Assembly (NCBI RefSeq): GCF_000016665.1
Contig: NC_009523.1
Span: forward strand, 2,604,001 to 2,668,000
From: Roseiflexus sp. RS-1
GTDB lineage: Bacteria > Chloroflexota > Chloroflexia > Chloroflexales > Roseiflexaceae
Length of the DNA stretch: 64,000 bases
Reading direction: 5' to 3'
The notes beneath the pieces were generated by a model, which saw only the letters and a program-made list of their open reading frames with translations, did not search any database and was not told the DNA's origin. The stretch's first letter is position 1. Each line of letters opens with the position of its first letter. Below, piece by piece: positions 16,730-27,698 of this stretch. A program made the position numbers and the translations under genes.

Positions 16730-16877
16730 GGTTGTTCGAGTCCACTCCAATCATCAAAATGCCTTAACCTGAACCCCATACAATAGTACGCTGTCAGGGT
16801 TACCGGGTCATTACCAGGTTGGACGACAATATGATTGTTGTGTCAGATATGCCTCATCGGTTTGTGACCTGCTGCTA

Positions 16878-16886
16878 TGCTACAAT
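16878..16886 (+). promoter_or_regulatory. Extended -10 promoter of the propeller lipoprotein
   Basis: TGC directly followed by TACAAT, an extended -10 without a good -35. Transcription would begin near 16893, so the heptamer array that follows makes up almost the whole 5' leader. Confidence 0.45.
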
Positions 16887-16899
16887 GTCCATAAACCCT

Positions 16900-16948
16900 G
16901 GCTCTCAGTTCTCAGTTCTCAGTTCTCGGTTCTTGGTTCTCAGTTCTC
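16900..16948 (+). repeat. Seven-unit heptanucleotide array in the leader, abutting the ATG
   Basis: Units in order: GGCTCTC, AGTTCTC (three times), GGTTCTT, GGTTCTC, AGTTCTC, then one A and the ATG. No ribosome-binding sequence separates the array from the start codon. The consensus is the same as the 41-unit array at 26468. Confidence 0.9.
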
Positions 16949-16949
16949 A

Positions 16950-18413
16950 ATGATGATACACCCCATGCGCTTCTTCGCAACCATCGTCCTGTCTACCGCC
17001 CTCACCTTACTGCTGGCAGCATGCGGCGGTGCGCCACCCCCGCCAGCTGCGCTTCCCACGTCGCTGCCGGAAACGCCGACTGCGGCGCCTTCGCCGACGC
17101 CGATTCCCCTCCCCACAGCGCTCCCGTCGCCGACGCCGGAAGCGGCGCAGCCGCAACCAACGAGCCTGCCTGAACCGACGCCGCTTCCGTCCTCGTCTCC
17201 TGCGCCAGCGACGGTCACGCCGCTCCCGACGCCCGAAACGGCGACTGCTTCACCGCTTCCGCCCACGCCATCACGTCCGTCGGAAGGGTCGTTTACCGGC
17301 GCGCTGATCTTCCTGCGTGATGGTGCGCTCTGGCTCTTCGATGCGAATGGTGAGCGCCTGCTTGTTGATCGGGCATACGAGTTCGCTTCTAGCGCTGATG
17401 GCAATCTGATCGCAGTCACGCGCGAAACCGATCAGTTCGATATCTGGATCGTGTCGCGTGATGGCAGCGCACTCCGGCGGATCACCAATGATCGTGATAT
17501 CGAGTCCTCGCTTTCCTGGGCGCCCGATGGGTCGGCGCTGGTTTTTGCCGCTGCCGATGCCAGCGAACCATTGCCGCAACTCTGGCCCGATTGGGCGTTG
17601 TGGTGCGGTGCAAGCCAGGTCTCTGTCATTGATCTCGCCAGCGGGCAGCGTCAGACGCTTGCGCGCGGCTGCGACCCGGCAGTGTCGCCCGATGGTCGAC
17701 GCATTGCATACAGCGCACCTCCGACTGCTCGTGATACGGGAATGGCGGGGGGAGCGCCGGTGTTCGGGAATGCCCTGCGCCTGATCAATCGGCGCGGTGA
17801 GAATGGCTGGAACTTTGCCAGTGCCGATGGCGCCGATGCTCCGCTGCCCAACACCGGCATGCTGGTCTACGGACCCGCCTGGTCGCCCGATGGCGCATCG
17901 GTGACCTACCATCGGTATCTCGGCATGCAGGTCGAAGTCGATATTAATCTGAGCGAGATCGGCGGGTCGTTTGAGGGCAAGGGGCGTCCATTCGCCGAGG
18001 GAGCAGGATGGTTGTTGCCGGTGCGCTTTGCGTCGGATGGACGGCGCGCGGCGATTATTGAACATAACTACAGCGATGCGCGCGGGTTTGGCGGCTATGA
18101 TGCCTGGTCGGTGCAGGTGGTGACATTCGATGGCTCGCGTACCGTCGATCTTCCCCAGGGTCCAATGACAATGATTGGCGGCAGTGCGACGCGCCTGCCG
18201 CGCGCCGCCAGCGCCGCCTGGTCACCCGATGGGACGCGCCTGGCTGTCCTGCTTCCACCCGGATGGCGGCCCGATGCGTCGCTGAATGAGCCGTTCGATC
18301 CGACAGGCGCAGAACGTCCGGGTGAGGTGTGGTTGTGGCAACCCGACGCAGCTCCGTCAGTTCGTCTCATCAGCAACGTTGACTTTGCCTCGCCGCTCGC
18401 CTGGTTGCCTTAG
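16950..18413 (+). CDS. WD40-like (TolB/PD40-type) beta-propeller lipoprotein
   Basis: A signal sequence with lipobox LLAAC (Cys25 from the first ATG) predicts an exported, lipid-anchored protein. Then comes a roughly 85-residue low-complexity linker of Pro, Thr, Ser and Glu, followed by a propeller (residues 110-487) with PD40-style blades: SADGNLIAVTRE, SWAPDGSALVF, AVSPDGRRIAYS, AWSPDGASVTYHR, FASDGRRAAII and AWSPDGTRLAVL. It probably acts as an extracellular binding protein; no enzyme motif is seen. Two adjacent ATGs (16950, 16965) are possible, and neither has a ribosome site because the heptamer array runs up to the first. Confidence 0.8.
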   Translation: MMIHPMRFFATIVLSTALTLLLAACGGAPPPPAALPTSLPETPTAAPSPTPIPLPTALPSPTPEAAQPQPTSLPEPTPLPSSSPAPATVTPLPTPETATASPLPPTPSRPSEGSFTGALIFLRDGALWLFDANGERLLVDRAYEFASSADGNLIAVTRETDQFDIWIVSRDGSALRRITNDRDIESSLSWAPDGSALVFAAADASEPLPQLWPDWALWCGASQVSVIDLASGQRQTLARGCDPAVSPDGRRIAYSAPPTARDTGMAGGAPVFGNALRLINRRGENGWNFASADGADAPLPNTGMLVYGPAWSPDGASVTYHRYLGMQVEVDINLSEIGGSFEGKGRPFAEGAGWLLPVRFASDGRRAAIIEHNYSDARGFGGYDAWSVQVVTFDGSRTVDLPQGPMTMIGGSATRLPRAASAAWSPDGTRLAVLLPPGWRPDASLNEPFDPTGAERPGEVWLWQPDAAPSVRLISNVDFASPLAWLP

Positions 18414-18461: not shown

Positions 18462-18590
18462 CTCTTGCCGTCGGGCTGATGGAGATTGAGAATTTATTCC
18501 GCTATCCCGCGCTAGCCGTGGGGCTAAAGCCCTCGGCTATGCAAGGCGAAGCCCGCCTGCGCGGGCTAGAGCGGAATAATTACTCAAAGA
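18462..18590. repeat. Dispersed palindromic repeat, copy 1
   Basis: About 129 bases running from CTCTTGCCGTCGGG to TACTCAAAGA and containing nested inverted repeats (TAGCCG...CGGCTA, GGGCT...AGCCC, and AGCCCGC...GCGGGCT). A second copy begins at 19608. The two flank the IS element. Confidence 0.8.
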
Positions 18591-18682
18591 CCATTATTTC
18601 GGTCATCGCGTGGGGCGCGCCATTCCCAGGAGTATTCAACCCTGTTCATCAGGTTCAACCTTTGTGAGAGCGTGATCAAAAA

Positions 18683-19123
18683 CTAACACCTCGGATAAAG
18701 CCTATTCAGGAGCATTGCAATAGAACCGAGATAAAGAAAGGCTTCGCTTGATTCTGGATTGCGGTTGTTGCGGCGAATAATTATTCGCCGCAACAACCGA
18801 TTGCGTCCCGCCCACGCAATCGAGCGTTCCACCACCCATCGCTTCGGGATGACGGCAAATCCCTTTTGTCCAGGCGGTTTTTCGATGACATTCAGGCGTA
18901 TCGTCGTGTTCTGTTGCATCCATTCATTTAACCCTTGTTTGTATCCTTCATCCACCCGAATTTCTTGCATCCGAGGAAACGATTGATGATGCGCGGCGAG
19001 AAGCCACTCAGCGCCTTCAGTATCCGAAATATCGGCGGGATGGACCAACACGCGCAACAAAAACCCATTGGTGTCAACCCAGAACTGCCGTTTGCGCCCG
19101 TTGACCTTTTTTTCCCCCATCAT
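18683..19123 (-). CDS. IS5-family transposase, C-terminal frame (orfB)
   Basis: A 146-residue frame carrying the second half of a DDE transposase: KVNGRKRQFWVDTNGFLL, where the Asp is the second catalytic acid, then VDEGYKQGL, and the C-terminal ERSIAWAGRNRLLRR with the DDE-family Glu and Tyr-equivalent region. It overlaps orfA by 50 bases. Its own ATG has no ribosome site, so a functional protein would need a frame change from orfA at the A7 run. Confidence 0.8.
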   Translation of the reverse strand: MMGEKKVNGRKRQFWVDTNGFLLRVLVHPADISDTEGAEWLLAAHHQSFPRMQEIRVDEGYKQGLNEWMQQNTTIRLNVIEKPPGQKGFAVIPKRWVVERSIAWAGRNRLLRRIIIRRNNRNPESSEAFLYLGSIAMLLNRLYPRC

Positions 19124-19508
19124 AGCCGCGTTCTCCGCCTGCTTCGGTCGTTTTGACGGATTGGGAGTCCAGGACGCTGATGGACGGCTCCGGGTCGCGG
19201 TTCAGCGCCTGTCGCGCCAGTTTCCGCAGCGTATCATTGATTTTGATAAAGGTTCCATCACGATTCCATTTGTCGAAAGAGTACCGAACGGAGCTCATTG
19301 GCGGAACATCTTTCGGACGCATGCGCCATTGACAGCCCGTGCGATTTTTGGAGAGCAGCGCGTTGACGATCGCGCGGCGATCGATTTCGGTCGGACGCCC
19401 GCCGTTGGGCGACGGGGTGATGACGAGTGGCGCGATGGCGGCCCATTGCGCATCGGTCAGATCGGTCGCATACTTGGTTGGATAGGATCGAAGTGCACGT
19501 CGTGGCAT
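19074..19508 (-). CDS. IS5-family transposase, N-terminal frame (orfA)
   Basis: A 144-residue frame starting MPRRALRSYPTKY, with the DUF4096-like N-terminal domain (LTDAQWAAIAPLV, GGRPTEIDRRAIVNALL, GCQWRMRP) and the first catalytic Asp in SVLDSQSVK. After GGERGYDGGKK it leaves the conserved frame and ends ten residues on. A homopolymer of seven A (plus-strand T at 19107-19113) lies exactly at the switch; removing one A joins orfA to orfB as GGKKVNGRKR. Confidence 0.82.
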   Translation of the reverse strand: MPRRALRSYPTKYATDLTDAQWAAIAPLVITPSPNGGRPTEIDRRAIVNALLSKNRTGCQWRMRPKDVPPMSSVRYSFDKWNRDGTFIKINDTLRKLARQALNRDPEPSISVLDSQSVKTTEAGGERGYDGGKKGQRAQTAVLG

Positions 19509-19788: not shown

Positions 19789-19815
19789 ACGAATTCAAAC
19801 GTATCGAATCCGTGT

Positions 19816-19976
19816 TGATCCGTCATATCCGTGCCGATCCGTGTTCTATTCCAGCGTCCGGGGCGCACCCGCCTGCGCGGGCTATTCCCGACAAACCTTC
19901 ATCCGCGCTGATCCGTCGCATCCGTGCCGATCCGTGTTCTATTCCAGCGTCCGGGGCGCACCCGCCTGCACGGGCT
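19816..19976. repeat. Two 68-base direct copies at 93-base spacing
   Basis: TGATCCGTC...GCGGGCT at 19816-19883 recurs at 19909-19976 with very few differences; the intervening 25 bases differ. The segment contains ATCCGTG repeats. From 19977 to the sixA end no gene is seen, apart from a 24-base block at 20057-20080 that recurs at 33901 and 34089. Confidence 0.75.
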
Positions 19977-22255: not shown

Positions 22256-22298
22256 CCTCCGGTTATCACTTCTTTACTGCAACGCGTCATGTTAATCC

Positions 22299-22326
22299 TT
22301 GCATGGCGCGCTGTGTTTGTTATCCT
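22299..22326 (+). promoter_or_regulatory. Promoter of the PocR-domain regulator
   Basis: TTGCAT, 16 bases, TATCCT. Transcription would start near 22333, immediately before three 10-base direct repeats. Confidence 0.45.
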
Positions 22327-22340
22327 TTTCTCAAATACTA

Positions 22341-22370
22341 TTGCATCCTATTGCAACCTGTTGCAACGTC
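22341..22370 (+). repeat. Three 10-base direct repeats in the leader of the PocR-domain gene
   Basis: TTGCATCCTA, TTGCAACCTG and TTGCAACGTC follow one another without gaps. One-turn spacing suggests a protein-binding array on one face of the helix. Confidence 0.65.
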
Positions 22371-22376
22371 GCACAC

Positions 22377-23147
22377 GTGAACGATTTATTGACCACCCGA
22401 GAAGTACAGGACCTGCTGAAACTGGATCGAACCACCGTCTATCGCATGCTCAAAGAAGGACGACTGACGGGGGTGAAGGTCGGGCAGCAGTGGCGTTTCC
22501 ACCGTCGAGAAGTCGAGGCGTTGATCCAGGGCGCTTCATCCGCTGCGGCGGATCGTCCCGCTCCAACCATTGATCCTCGCACCAGATCACCGCTCACCCC
22601 TGTGCCGCTGCCACTCCATTGCGTGCAGGCAATCCAGGATGTCTTCGCCGATCTTGCGCGGGTCGGCGTGATTACCACCACGACCGATGGGGCGCCGTTG
22701 ACACAGGTCAGCAATGGGTGTCGGTTCTGCGCATTGGTGCAGGCGACCGACGCAGGTCGAGCCGCCTGCCGCGCTTCGTGGCGCGCGCTCGCAGCGCGGA
22801 GCGACCGCACGCCGCGCATTGCGACATGCCACGCAGGGTTGAAGTACATTCACGCGCGCATCGAGATAGGCGAGCAACCGGCAGCCATGCTGATCGCTGG
22901 TCAGTTCCGCGTGGATGATGCGCCGCTCGACACCCGGCGTCTTGCTCATGACTTCGGCATCGATCCCGGCGAACTCGATGCTGCGCTAGGCGAGGTGACG
23001 ATCCTGGATGACCGGATGCGCGCGCAACTGGGGTCCTGGTTGCAGAAAGTCGCGCATACGTTCGAGGAAATCGGGCGCGAACGCGCCGCAATGATCGGTC
23101 GGCTGCGGGCGATCAGCGACCTGGCTGTCATTGATCGCTCGCATTGA
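22377..23147 (+). CDS. Regulator with excisionase-type HTH and PocR sensory domain
   Basis: About 256 residues. Residues 3-52 are a MerR/excisionase-like helix-turn-helix (TTREVQDLLKLDRTTVYRMLKEGRLTGVKVGQQWRFHRREVE). Residues 78-235 match the PocR ligand-binding domain: FADLARVGVITTTTDGAPLTQ, then NGCRFCALV, AACRASW and TCHAGLKYI, with conserved cysteines. PocR domains sense small molecules such as hydrocarbon derivatives or act in redox control. A GTG start is chosen because the HTH begins there. The oxidoreductase 52 bases downstream is a plausible target. Confidence 0.8.
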   Translation: MNDLLTTREVQDLLKLDRTTVYRMLKEGRLTGVKVGQQWRFHRREVEALIQGASSAAADRPAPTIDPRTRSPLTPVPLPLHCVQAIQDVFADLARVGVITTTTDGAPLTQVSNGCRFCALVQATDAGRAACRASWRALAARSDRTPRIATCHAGLKYIHARIEIGEQPAAMLIAGQFRVDDAPLDTRRLAHDFGIDPGELDAALGEVTILDDRMRAQLGSWLQKVAHTFEEIGRERAAMIGRLRAISDLAVIDRSH

Positions 23148-23198
23148 ACGTCTGGTGTCCGTGTTGACAGCTCCGCAGCGTTGCGGGGGAGACAAACA

Positions 23199-26100
23199 AT
23201 GAACTCACACAACCTGTCCTTCCTCCACCGGTTTGGCGAGCGAGTCTCATTTGATCGCATCGAACGCAAACTCTACAGTCACGACATCGCCGCCATTCCC
23301 GGTCTCATCGCCCCACTGCTGGGCGATGCCATTCCCGATGCCGTGGTGCAACCACAGAACGAAGAGGAACTGGTCGAACTGGCGCGCTGGGCGTCTGCGC
23401 ACCGTATTCCGCTGACGCCGCGCGGCAAGGCGTCCTCCGGCTACGGCGGCGCCGTGCCGGTCAGGAAAGGAGTGGTCATCGATTTCTACCGCATGCGCAA
23501 GGTGCTGCGCATCGATGCGGCGGCGCAGGTCGTCACGGTCGAGCCGGGCATCACCTGGGAGCAACTCGACAGGGCGCTGCAACGAGAGGGACTGACCCTG
23601 CGTCTCTATCCCACCAGTTATCCATCGTCAACGGTGGGTGGATGGCTGGCGCAGGGCGGTGCTGGCATCGGCAGTTACGAGTTCGGCTACTTCCGCGAAA
23701 ACGTCGTTGCCGCGCGTCTTGTGCTGCCGTCGGGTGAGGTGCGCGAACTGCGCGACGCCGATCTCGATCTGGTTGCCGATGCAGAGGGCATTACTGGCAT
23801 GATCAGCCAGGTAACGCTGAGGGTGATGCCGTTGACCGGCGTTCAGACGCTGGCGCTCGCGGTGCATGACACCCGCGCGTTTCAGGCGTTGCTGGAGGCG
23901 TTGATCACCCGCAGGCTGCCGATCTGGTCGATGAGTTTCATCAACCCGAAGATGGCGGAGATGAAGAACGAAGCGCCGCTGCGCGAACATCATGGTCATG
24001 TCGTCGAGCATCGCATTGTTCTGCCAAAAGCGTACATTCTGACCCTTGCCTTCCGTGATGCCGATGCTGCTGCGGTGCAGACCGCCATTCCAGTACTGGC
24101 GGCATCATACGGCGCTGAGATCCTGAGCGACGAGATCGCCCGGCACGAGTGGGACGGGCGGTTCAAACTGATGACGATCAAGCGTCTTGGTCCGTCGCTG
24201 GTTCCGGCGGAAGTGATTGTGCCGCTTGATCGTCTGGCGGATACACTCGATGAATACAGCCGCAGCGTTGCGCAACCACTGGTGAAAGAAGGCGTGCTGG
24301 TGCGGCATGGCGTCGATGGCAAGCCGGAAGTCGTCATTCTCGGCTTCATCCCTGCCGATCAGCGCACCTTCCGCTACAACCTGGTCTTTGGGTTGGCGCT
24401 CACCGTCATGCAGATCGCGCTCAGGCATGGTGGACGCCCATATGCGACTGGCATCTACTTCGCCCGCAAAGCGGAACAGGTGTTGGGCAGAGAACGCGCC
24501 GCAAGGTTGAAAGCCTTCAAATCGCAGGTCGATCCGGCAGGCGTCATGAATCCGGGAAAGGTCTTCGGCGGCGGTCTGGTCAGTGCGTTCATCGATCTGG
24601 CATCGCGTTTCGAGCCGCTGGCGCGTCGTTTTGGCAACGCCGCCCCGGTTGCAATCGGCGAGCGACCAACCGCACCGGTGCGCGATATTCCCGCTGATGT
24701 CGCCTGGTACGCCTATGCCTGTTCGCAGTGCGGCTACTGCATCGACGAGTGCGATCAGTTCTATGGTCGCGGATGGGAGAGCCAGAGTCCGCGCGGCAAG
24801 TGGTACTGGCTGCGTGAGTACATGGAGGGGCGCGAGCAGTGGAATCAGAAAATGGTGGACACTTTCCTCGCCTGCACGACCTGCGAGATGTGCAACCTGC
24901 GCTGCTCCGCCAACCTGCCGATTGAACCGTCGTGGATGAAACTGCGTGGTCAGTTGATCAACGAAGAGAAGAAGATGACCTTCCCGCCGTTCGAGATGAT
25001 GAGTGCGGCTCTTACCGAACAGGGCAACATCTGGGCTGGCTACCGCGAGCGACGCGACGCCTGGTTCCCCGAAGACCTGAAAGACCGGCACGGTCCCGAC
25101 CATCGCTCGAAGAACGTCTACTTCGCCGGATGCACCGCCAGTTACGTTGAGCAGGACATCGGCATCGCCAGTGTGCGCCTGCTTGATGCCGCAGGCGTCG
25201 ATTTCACCTATCTGGGACCGAAGGAACACTGTTGTGCCACGCCGATGCTGGTCGCCGGTCGCTGGGACCTCTTTGTTGAGACGATGAAGAAGAACATCGC
25301 GGCAGTGAAAGCGGCAGGCGCCGATACGGTGATCAGTTCCTGCCCGGCATGCGATATGATGTGGCGGCATGTCTACCCGGCGTGGGCGAAGAAGGTTGGC
25401 ATCGAGTACAATATCACGGCGAAGCACTACTCTGAGATCGTGGCGGAGAAGATCCATGCCGGTGAGTTTGCGTTCCCGCAAACGGACAAAGCGCCGGTTA
25501 CCGTCACCTGGCACGACTCGTGCCACATCGGGCGGGTATCGGGCGTCTACGAGCCGCCGCGCGATCTGATCAGAGCCATTCCAAATGTCAACTTCGTCGA
25601 AATGGCAAACAACCGCGACTGTGGGAGATGCTGCGGTTCGGTGCTGACCCTGATCAAAGAGCCGGATGTCGCCGCCGAACTGGGCAAGGTTCGCATCGAT
25701 GAGGCGATCGAGGCAGGTGCAGAGAAGGTGCTGGCGCTCTGTCCGTGCTGCGAATTCCAGTTGCGGGTGAGCGCCGAAAAGAAGCGTTTGCCGGTCGAAG
25801 TTGTCGATCTGGCGCACTTTGCCGCGGAAGCGCTCGGATACGAGTTGCCCGATCCCAATCCGGAGGTGCGTGCGCAGTGGGCGGTGTTCGAGGCGATGAT
25901 CAAACTGATGACGCCGGAGGGCTTCGCCAATCTGATGACGACTATGTGGCCCGAGATCATCGACGCTATGCCGTTGGGTATGGGACGGATGATGCGGGCG
26001 ATGGGCAGGGTTCCCGGCGCGCTCGAAGCGATGAAGCCGCTGTTCCCGGCGCTCTTCCCGCGTCTGTTGCCGCTTATGATGCCCAAACTGATGCCGACCA

Positions 26101-26273
26101 TGCTGGCGCGGGTTGGGGAGATGATCCCGATGCCGGATTATATGGCGGAACAAATGCCGGTTCTGATGCCGAAAGTCGTCGACCGGTTGATGCCGCACAT
26201 GATCGGCGACGTTGTGCCGCTCGTGACGCAACCGCTGATCGACTACCTGCACGAACAGGCGCGGCTGAACTGA
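23199..26273 (+). CDS. GlcD/HdrD-type fusion: FAD oxidase, Fe-S and CCG domains with Met/Pro-rich tail
   Basis: A 1024-residue protein. Residues 45-480 are a FAD_binding_4 domain and C-terminal cap, as in glycolate/D-lactate oxidases (TPRGKASSGYGG, PSSTVGGWLAQGG, VDPAGVMNPGK). Near 515-590 are two 4Fe-4S motifs, CSQCGYCIDEC and CTTCEMCNLRC. Next come two CCG domains (HCCATPM/CPAC, then HDSCHIGR/CGRCCGS/CPCC), as in GlpC and HdrD. The last ~110 residues repeat Met-Pro-Leu units and resemble no catalytic domain. It likely oxidises a 2-hydroxyacid and passes electrons to a membrane carrier. The start follows GGGGGAG. Confidence 0.85.
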   Translation: MNSHNLSFLHRFGERVSFDRIERKLYSHDIAAIPGLIAPLLGDAIPDAVVQPQNEEELVELARWASAHRIPLTPRGKASSGYGGAVPVRKGVVIDFYRMRKVLRIDAAAQVVTVEPGITWEQLDRALQREGLTLRLYPTSYPSSTVGGWLAQGGAGIGSYEFGYFRENVVAARLVLPSGEVRELRDADLDLVADAEGITGMISQVTLRVMPLTGVQTLALAVHDTRAFQALLEALITRRLPIWSMSFINPKMAEMKNEAPLREHHGHVVEHRIVLPKAYILTLAFRDADAAAVQTAIPVLAASYGAEILSDEIARHEWDGRFKLMTIKRLGPSLVPAEVIVPLDRLADTLDEYSRSVAQPLVKEGVLVRHGVDGKPEVVILGFIPADQRTFRYNLVFGLALTVMQIALRHGGRPYATGIYFARKAEQVLGRERAARLKAFKSQVDPAGVMNPGKVFGGGLVSAFIDLASRFEPLARRFGNAAPVAIGERPTAPVRDIPADVAWYAYACSQCGYCIDECDQFYGRGWESQSPRGKWYWLREYMEGREQWNQKMVDTFLACTTCEMCNLRCSANLPIEPSWMKLRGQLINEEKKMTFPPFEMMSAALTEQGNIWAGYRERRDAWFPEDLKDRHGPDHRSKNVYFAGCTASYVEQDIGIASVRLLDAAGVDFTYLGPKEHCCATPMLVAGRWDLFVETMKKNIAAVKAAGADTVISSCPACDMMWRHVYPAWAKKVGIEYNITAKHYSEIVAEKIHAGEFAFPQTDKAPVTVTWHDSCHIGRVSGVYEPPRDLIRAIPNVNFVEMANNRDCGRCCGSVLTLIKEPDVAAELGKVRIDEAIEAGAEKVLALCPCCEFQLRVSAEKKRLPVEVVDLAHFAAEALGYELPDPNPEVRAQWAVFEAMIKLMTPEGFANLMTTMWPEIIDAMPLGMGRMMRAMGRVPGALEAMKPLFPALFPRLLPLMMPKLMPTMLARVGEMIPMPDYMAEQMPVLMPKVVDRLMPHMIGDVVPLVTQPLIDYLHEQARLN

Positions 26274-26280
26274 CGAGCCG

Positions 26281-26436
26281 ATAGCCGATGGTCGATAGCC
26301 GATGGTCGATAGCCGATAGCCGATAGCCGATAGCCGATAGCCGATGGTCGATAGTCGAGGAACAATGAGCGTGACCGGTCAGGGGTGGAAGGTGGTAGGA
26401 GATAGCCGATAGCCAATAGCCGATAGCCGATAGTGG
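26281..26436. repeat. Heptanucleotide array ATAGCCG in two blocks
   Basis: Eleven units at 26281-26357 (mostly ATAGCCG, with ATGGTCG variants) begin eight bases after the oxidoreductase stop. A second block of about five units lies at 26402-26436. The 44 bases between contain no gene. Confidence 0.9.
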
Positions 26437-26467
26437 AAGGTCTGACAACCCCTGACCCCTGACCTCC

Positions 26468-26753
26468 GGTTCCTGGTTCTCGGTTCCTGGTTCTCGGTTC
26501 CTGGTTCTCGGTTCCTGGTTCTCAGTTCCTGGTTCCTGGTTCTCAGTTCCTGGTTCTTGGTTCTTGGTTCCTGGTTCTTGGTTCTCAGTTCTTGGTTCCT
26601 GGTTCTCAGTTCCTGGTTCTCGGTTCCTGGTTCTCAGTTCCTGGTTCTCGGTTCTCGGTTCTCAGTTCTCGGTTCTCGGTTCTCAGTTCTCGGTTCTCGG
26701 TTCTCAGTTCTCAGTTCTCGGTTCTCGGTTCTCAGTTCTCAGTTCTCGGTTCT
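26468..26753 (+). repeat. 41-unit heptanucleotide array RGTTCYY running into the mevalonate kinase ATG
   Basis: Forty complete 7-base units plus one of six bases. The first ~25 units alternate GGTTCCT and GGTTCTC with occasional AGTTCCT and GGTTCTT; the last 16 are only GGTTCTC or AGTTCTC. No stop codon occurs in any plus-strand frame within the array. It ends GGTTCT, immediately followed by ATG. Confidence 0.95.
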
Positions 26754-27698
26754 ATGCACGCATCCGCTCCCGGCAAAATCATTCTCTGTGGCGAACATGC
26801 CGTCGTCTACGGTCGCCCGGCGATTGCCATCCCGCTGAACGATGTGCGCGCGCGGGTCAGTATCATCCCCGGTGCGCCGGGCAGCGGCGTTTGCTTCGAC
26901 GCGCCCGATCTTGGGCGGCGCTGGTTGATCACATCCGCTCCGCACGATCCTCTCTCTGAACTGACGCTGGCGATTCTGCGACAGTTTGGCGTACAGCGTA
27001 TGCCAGACATCGAGATAGCCATCACATCGGACATCCCGATTGCAAGCGGGATGGGAAGCGGTGCTGCAATTGCGACCGCCATCGTGCGGGCGCTGGCATC
27101 GGCGTATGGGCGCAACCTGAGTGCGGCTGAGGTCTCGGCGCTGGTGTACGAGAGTGAGCAGCGCTTTCATGGGACGCCCAGCGGCATTGACAACACGGTG
27201 ATTGCGTATGAACAGGTAATCTGGTTCCAGCGGCGCAGCGAGCCGCCACACCAGATCGAGCCGATCGCGATTGCTGAGCCGTTCACGCTGCTCATCGGCG
27301 ATACCGGCGTGCGCAGCGCGACGCGCCTGCCGGTCGGCGAGGTGCGGCGACGCTGGGAGAGAGACCCATCGCGCTATGAGATGCTGTTCGACGCAGTGGC
27401 GGACGTGGTGTATCAGGCGCGGCGTGCGCTGGCTGAGGGTGATCGTGCCGCGTTAGGACCATTGCTCGACCGCAATCAGGCGTTACTGGAGGAAATCGGC
27501 GTATCATCCCCAGAACTGGAGCGTCTGATCACCGCTGCGCGCAGTGCCGGCGCAGGGGGCGCAAAACTCTCCGGCGGCGGTTGGGGCGGGGTGATGATTG
27601 CGCTGGTTGAACCGGAGACCGCGCAACAGGTGCGGCAGGCATTACAGGCGGCGGGAGCGACGCGCGTGCTGGAGACCATTGTTCAGGCTGCCGCCTGA
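26754..27698 (+). CDS. mvk: Mevalonate kinase (GHMP kinase)
   Basis: A 314-residue GHMP kinase. Motif 1 is APGKIILCGEHAVVYGRPA at the very start, motif 2 (ATP loop) is IPIASGMGSGAAIATA near residue 100, and motif 3 is AGAGGAKLSGGGWGG near 270. GEHAVVYG is characteristic of mevalonate kinase rather than galactokinase or homoserine kinase. It phosphorylates mevalonate for isoprenoid synthesis; I recall that Roseiflexus uses a modified mevalonate pathway. The ATG chosen begins the conserved fold. The heptamer array upstream is open in the same frame, so an N-terminal repeat extension (VLGSRFS-type) is formally possible. No ribosome site is present. Confidence 0.88.
   Translation: MHASAPGKIILCGEHAVVYGRPAIAIPLNDVRARVSIIPGAPGSGVCFDAPDLGRRWLITSAPHDPLSELTLAILRQFGVQRMPDIEIAITSDIPIASGMGSGAAIATAIVRALASAYGRNLSAAEVSALVYESEQRFHGTPSGIDNTVIAYEQVIWFQRRSEPPHQIEPIAIAEPFTLLIGDTGVRSATRLPVGEVRRRWERDPSRYEMLFDAVADVVYQARRALAEGDRAALGPLLDRNQALLEEIGVSSPELERLITAARSAGAGGAKLSGGGWGGVMIALVEPETAQQVRQALQAAGATRVLETIVQAAA

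Follow-up and report, generated by a model that had tools for sequence, protein, structure and literature searches.

Polar GTTCTYR heptamer arrays abut start codons and opposite-strand stop codons in Roseiflexus

The window, a stretch of 64,000 nucleotides from the genome of Roseiflexus sp. RS-1, contains a lipoprotein gene and a GHMP kinase gene that are each immediately preceded by an array of GTTCTYR heptamers (Table 1). The original prediction, that two genes carry this repeat at the same position relative to their start, was borne out, the arrays ending directly at ATG 16950 and at ATG 26754. The array before the lipoprotein gene is real: TRF, run on the window, returned it with a period of 7, 6.7 copies, a 90% match and a score of 73, and its sequence reads TCTCA-GTTCTCA-GTTCTCA-GTTCTCG-GTTCTTG-GTTCTCA-GTTCTCA. 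The single A said to separate it from the ATG exists in one phase of the repeat only, and no gap is left when the unit is read as GTTCTCA. The lipoprotein ORF that begins at this ATG is 487 amino acids long; translation could instead begin at the ATG at 16953 or at the one at 16965, which our gene caller favoured.

Table 1. Features at the two array-bearing loci, in window coordinates
Feature	Position	Strand	Basis and remarks
Conserved block TGTCAGATATGCCTCATCGG (TGTCAGA...TCATCGG) upstream of the promoter	16841..16860	+	By-eye alignment with L262, L263, L264 and L265 (G001, G004, G005 and G003)
Extended -10 promoter element TG-C-TACAAT	16878..16886	+	Sequence; TGG/C-TACAAT at the same place in G001, G003, G004 and G005
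Heptamer array (GTTCTYR)~6.7	16903..16949	+	TRF and sequence; makes up most of the predicted 5' leader and abuts ATG 16950
Lipoprotein gene with PD40 (WD40-like beta-propeller) repeats; lipobox LLAACGG	16950..18413	+	ORF; Pfam PF07676, E=3e-15
Two arrays of another heptamer (AGCCGAT; CGGCTAT on the other strand)	26276..26433	+	TRF; recurrent family in the genome; same intergenic region as the large array
Large GTTCTYR array, ~41 units	26467..26753	+	TRF and sequence; ends directly at ATG 26754
GHMP kinase (mevalonate-kinase type) gene	26754..27698	+	Pfam GHMP_kinases_N and _C

The extended -10 element proposed upstream of the lipoprotein array is also present (TG at 16878-16879, TACAAT at 16881-16886), at a distance of 16 nt from the array and not the predicted 14. 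Five Roseiflexus genomes have in common, upstream of this gene, both TGSTACAAT and the TGTCAGA...TCATCGG block, which is possibly an operator or a -35 region. The number of GTTCT-type units in the orthologous leaders is 6.7 here, about 2-4 in G001, G003 and G004, one in G005 (followed by unrelated sequence) and zero in the outgroup G327. Because related Roseiflexus genomes keep the promoter and have repeat units following it, the prediction that the lipoprotein mRNA begins just before the array is strengthened and, as far as sequence can tell, well supported. At this locus the array would have come to fill the space from an old conserved promoter to the ATG as the transcribed leader of the gene, which would be translated without a Shine-Dalgarno sequence. 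Directly 3' of the lipoprotein gene lies a dispersed repeat of about 130 bp (~18467-18594 in the window), with dozens of copies in G001 and copies also in G327. The only Rfam match, to CRISPR-DR28 at 18545-18568, falls inside this repeat and is probably spurious. Farther along, downstream of a split transposase-like ORF pair (18683-19508), a 93-bp tandem duplication with 93% match occupies positions 19808-19976 of the window.

At the border in G001 that matches the 41-unit array, a single GGTTCT unit abuts the same GHMP kinase ATG. A second array, at genome position 3865476, has 10 units here and two in G001, with both flanks alignable. In both cases the difference from G001, judged by alignment, is expansion or contraction in place. 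The neighbourhood of the GHMP kinase gene differs as well: in G001, the kinase gene begins 12 nt after guaA, with one GGTTCT unit in between, while in the window (22256-26753) the two genes are parted by two ORFs and by arrays of three heptamer families (AGCCGAT, ACCCCTG and GTTCTYR). Relative to G001, this separation is a rearrangement bordered by arrays.

A search of the single-contig genome (5,801,598 bp) with a three-unit pattern gave 464 matches, against 4 for a reversed-pattern control, and about 85 dispersed GTTCTYR arrays are present in it. Loci were chosen around arrays, and approximately 1 Mb surrounding them was analysed with a simple codon-score gene caller of our own (760 genes, 80% coding); the commonest tandem period that TRF found in this sample was 7. 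We classified 88 composite arrays of at least three units, 87 of them with neighbours on both sides. All 87 were intergenic, and the number of units per array ranged from 3 to 41. Six variants (GTTC followed by TCA, TCG, CTG, TTG, CCG or TTA) make up almost all units, and this set is common to all arrays. Throughout the unit spectrum, a C at position 5 is accompanied by a G at position 7: no GTTCCTA unit occurs and only 5 GTTCCCA units do, where independence of sites would give roughly 40 and 60. Arrays of the same type occur in named Roseiflexus metagenome-assembled genomes. Among 400 sampled genomes of the phylum, a four-unit pattern was found in quantity only in the genus Roseiflexus, with a few matches in one related genus, and viral contigs yielded only 8 stretches with a five-unit pattern. 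A limited literature search found no published description of the Roseiflexus arrays.

To score placement, each array was read 5' to 3' along its pyrimidine-rich GTTCTYR strand, and a cut-off of 20 nt from a gene border was applied. The 3' end lay within this distance of a CDS border in 48 of the 87 arrays, as against 6 for the 5' end (binomial p=3e-9). When arrays were placed at random in the same gaps, 10.6 +/- 2.7 were border-near, with a maximum of 22 in 2000 trials. The 48 flush 3' ends comprise 29 same-strand start codons and 19 stop codons of opposite-strand genes, the latter codons often overlapping the array. Compared with random intergenic positions, the excess of 3' ends is significant for starts (p=2e-14) and for stops (p=1e-12), and no excess is seen at the 5' end. 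The arrays are thus strongly enriched next to start codons, the outcome of the genome scan that left the original prediction standing on this point. The special relation to starts that it had also proposed is not supported, given the use of the two kinds of border in proportion to their supply (29 of 465 starts, 19 of 379 stops, Fisher p=0.46). A regulatory start-codon switch is not favoured, and starts are not preferred as such.

Several arrays counted as non-flush end beside starts overlooked by the gene caller, one ends at a -10 element (genome 4229119) and one adjoins the 3' end of a tRNA-Ser gene (genome 4655528), so that the true flush fraction is higher than counted. A strong -10 element just downstream of non-flush arrays was found in 7 of 35 cases, against a background of about 9%, which is suggestive only; upstream of arrays, a strict -10 list revealed no general promoter enrichment. 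A general pyrimidine bias at gene borders was rejected as the cause of the placement, as none was found at array-free borders. In whole genomes, the ratio of arrays with an ATG no more than 8 nt from their 3' end to the mirror case was 29:6 in this genome (G000), 17:7 in G001, 16:9 in G002, 14:8 in G003 and 19:10 in G004; G005, at 34:42, is not polar, its count probably being inflated by a MITE edge. Outside the lineage, in records mostly from other phyla, the same heptamer showed no start polarity (12 versus 12 of 100 arrays). We therefore reject universality of polarity for this heptamer and conclude that something lineage-specific is involved.

Most start-flush arrays (22 of 29) precede genes that have no Shine-Dalgarno sequence and end 0-8 nt before the ATG, the lipoprotein array being an exception, at 15 nt, if the later ATG is used. 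In the other seven, the array stops just before the Shine-Dalgarno sequence, 13-18 nt from the start. A frequency of 7 in 29, compared with 44% of genes generally (p=0.052), is the chief reason for regarding a translational role at start-flush genes as possible. Such a role would be explained if the pyrimidine-rich 5' untranslated region recruited ribosomes to genes lacking a Shine-Dalgarno sequence, with S1 or a cold-shock protein as a possible mediator. The precedent is the proposal made for the TAACTGA repeats of Beggiatoaceae (PMC4679880), and the explanation also draws on the recurrence of promoter and repeat-bearing leader at the lipoprotein locus of other Roseiflexus genomes. The starts in question are kept in species without an array, and we therefore take the flush ATGs for genuine starts. 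Against recruitment of ribosomes, opposite-strand stops, at which nothing is initiated, are used equally commonly, unit number is not conserved, and some orthologous starts have no array. Nor is a single GTTCTYR unit enriched before array-free starts, which also counts against the special relation to starts and led us to reject the idea that one unit alone is a general translation signal. The average array RNA is somewhat more highly structured than its dinucleotide-shuffled counterparts (mean z -2.1); an explanation by unstructured RNA was rejected on the ground that they are not less structured. All in all, we consider a functional leader unlikely, though likelier than the other rivals.

Orthologous borders were taken from G001 (mostly about 85-99% identity in probe pieces), G003, G004 and G005, all of them draft genomes with possible misassembly of arrays. 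At least two units within 60 nt were present at 29 of 36 borders in G001, 11 of 20 in G004, 7 of 19 in G005 and 5 of 20 in G003. Unit number was equal in only 3 of 34 pairs between G000 and G001 (Spearman -0.07), and orthologous arrays were no more alike in unit order than unrelated ones, with no order in common; these differences, too, tell against the supposed tie to starts. Comparison of unit decay beyond the 5' edge with that beyond the 3' edge gave a trend only (2.90 versus 2.45, p=0.11), and the decay gradient was for this reason dropped as a sign of growth at the 3' end.

The wide differences in unit number between orthologues, as seen in comparison between species, are what a contingency locus might produce, where slippage in unit number tunes or switches the downstream gene. 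At the lipoprotein locus the array also sits between promoter and ATG, like the repeats of Moraxella uspA1/uspA2 in the passage of PMC4679880 that cites them. The affected genes, however, are housekeeping ones, among them those for enolase, argininosuccinate lyase, indole-3-glycerol phosphate synthase, an NADH dehydrogenase subunit and asparagine synthase, and ordinary housekeeping or general-metabolism genes are the rule beside start-flush arrays. The units are moreover heterogeneous, which slows slippage, and arrays at stops cannot switch translation. Phase variation is accordingly quite improbable.

It had also been proposed that the repeat is an inserted element with a target preference for start codons. 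The many dispersed copies with one set of units in common would suit a mobile element, as would the recurrent 5' neighbour described below, which has the same orientation in 16 cases. However, neither fixed ends nor inverted repeats nor an encoded recombinase were seen, and the ends vary with the neighbour; some relatives have 1-2 units at the same border and not an empty site, and no common inserted unit emerged. Strings of units common to different loci, even long ones, stayed within second- or third-order Markov expectation, and on this evidence copy-paste of whole arrays between loci was rejected. With stops being used as often as starts, we regard a start-seeking mobile element as very unlikely, and this part of the original prediction as unsustained.

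The polarity rule extends to a second family, GGTTGAA/GTTGAAC, which reads CTTCAAC/GTTCAAC on its pyrimidine strand. Of 55 arrays of this family, 25 have the 3' end of that strand, and 4 the opposite end, no more than 20 nt from a gene border; the family abuts stops too, with the same polarity, a further point against a preference for starts. In 16 cases one gap holds arrays of both families in the same orientation, with the GTTCTYR array just downstream of the other. Throughout the genome the junction of the two recurs as GGTTGAACCCGGTTC or GGTTGAACGGTTC (for example in L043, L082 and L062); its centre is a near-palindromic GAACC/GGTTC, from which the two pyrimidine strands diverge towards the gene borders. 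At some borders, inspected by eye, another species carries a different heptamer, such as CACCTCT or CCCCTAA, in the same orientation.

Comparable heptamers have been described elsewhere. The GGGAATC repeats of Xanthomonas and the GGGGAYT repeats of Nostoc lie almost exclusively nearer to the 5' neighbouring ORF, whatever the orientation of that ORF, being on the non-coding strand near starts and on the coding strand near or over stops, and they have been discussed in connection with G-quadruplexes (PMC4692102). The Roseiflexus arrays follow the same placement rule, one strand-defined end lying near an ORF in either orientation (48 versus 6 of 87). Like them, the Xanthomonas and Nostoc repeats are dispersed (about 90% intergenic in Xanthomonas), mostly keep their place between genes from one related genome to the next while varying in length and sequence, and accompany genes mainly of general metabolism. 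In contrast, those repeats are G-rich, capable of forming G-quadruplexes and preferentially four units long, whereas the common Roseiflexus units contain no G-tracts, a run of three G being found only in the minor unit GTTCCCG, on the other strand. The Roseiflexus arrays further differ in reaching about 41 units, in their six interchangeable variants, and in the presence of a second family with the same polarity in the same gaps. We read them as being of the same kind as the Xanthomonas and Nostoc polar heptamers by placement rule, and not as a quadruplex repeat. Since the common units lack G-tracts, the polarity rule needs no G-quadruplexes.

The TAACTGA arrays of Beggiatoaceae usually end about 1 nt before the start codon, mostly in genes without a Shine-Dalgarno sequence, and 147 of 170 point toward a start codon (PMC4679880, Table 1). 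They resemble the arrays described here in being heptameric, in mostly preceding starts without a Shine-Dalgarno sequence, in occasionally stopping just upstream of one, and in showing no functional gene class. They differ in unit (GTTCTYR here) and in having 2-6 copies, and their strong preference for starts is not shared by the Roseiflexus arrays, whose 29 starts and 19 opposite-strand stops are proportional to supply. Short tandemly repeated repetitive (STRR) sequences and long simple sequence repeats (LSSR) with 7-nt units, known from cyanobacteria and other bacteria, likewise have period 7, are intergenic, occur sporadically across phyla and have been attributed to polymerase slippage; they are a generic class, however, whose definition does not include a flush, polar border rule.

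A spacer acting at the DNA level and selected on either side of a gene, for instance as a barrier in replication-transcription conflicts or as a non-B-DNA element, would account for starts and stops being used symmetrically under a single strand polarity, and the similar placement of heptamers in Xanthomonas and Nostoc points the same way. But the lack of G-tracts leaves no G-quadruplex, no clear association of the arrays with a replication strand was apparent by eye, and the array is absent from the same border in many orthologues. A DNA-level spacer is, to our mind, highly improbable.

The arrays are probably a heptamer satellite of Roseiflexus non-coding DNA that is driven by slippage and recombination, bounded by selection, and polar. 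Unit number and order would turn over by replication slippage and by recombination among the ~85 arrays, and purifying selection on the neighbour would set the flush edge. The 3' edge of an array tends to stop at the first essential sequence encountered: a start codon, a Shine-Dalgarno sequence or an opposite-strand stop and, in single cases, a -10 promoter element or the 3' end of a tRNA. Polarity would follow from extension in one direction on one strand, which is our guess, and any effect on expression would be a by-product or mild modulation and not the reason for the placement. A satellite with a selection-set edge is the simplest account because starts, Shine-Dalgarno sequences, stops and occasionally a promoter or tRNA all act as the edge, and also because edges persist while contents are rewritten. 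Against it, growth that is neutral and limited only by selection would be expected to be symmetric in the absence of a polar process, and the scarcity of Shine-Dalgarno sequences at start-flush genes (p=0.052) could hint at a role independent of such sequences. A bolder version of the satellite, which we hold to be doubtful, is an active process in Roseiflexus that writes the six variants one way along the pyrimidine strand, 5' to 3', until it reaches a selected sequence, that rewrites arrays while coding DNA diverges by roughly 10%, and that is also responsible for the polar heptamers in Xanthomonas, Nostoc and Beggiatoaceae.

The same placement rule, with unrelated heptamers, is now seen in Chloroflexota in addition to Xanthomonas and Nostoc; the quadruplex explanation therefore does not hold in general, and it becomes possible to test whether the polarity has one shared cause, mutational or selective. 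For annotation, the arrays serve as markers of true gene borders and account for spurious low-complexity extensions at N-termini. A start-flush array should be accepted as a regulatory site only with a stop-codon control.

Some arrays are interrupted by other elements. Four (L035, L074, L104 and L056, at genome positions ~254700-255030, 2165710-2166567, 4352195-4352536 and 5056225-5056565, respectively) are split by an IS- or MITE-like insert with the ends AGAGCCTATCCGAA...TTCGGATAGGCTCT, which suggests that arrays are insertion hot spots. Another MITE-like element, with the terminal repeat GATAGAGCGATCAAC, lies inside GTTCTYR arrays in L275 (G005), and a recurrent GTATCAGTTCT edge is found in other arrays of G004 and G005, including L301 (G004).
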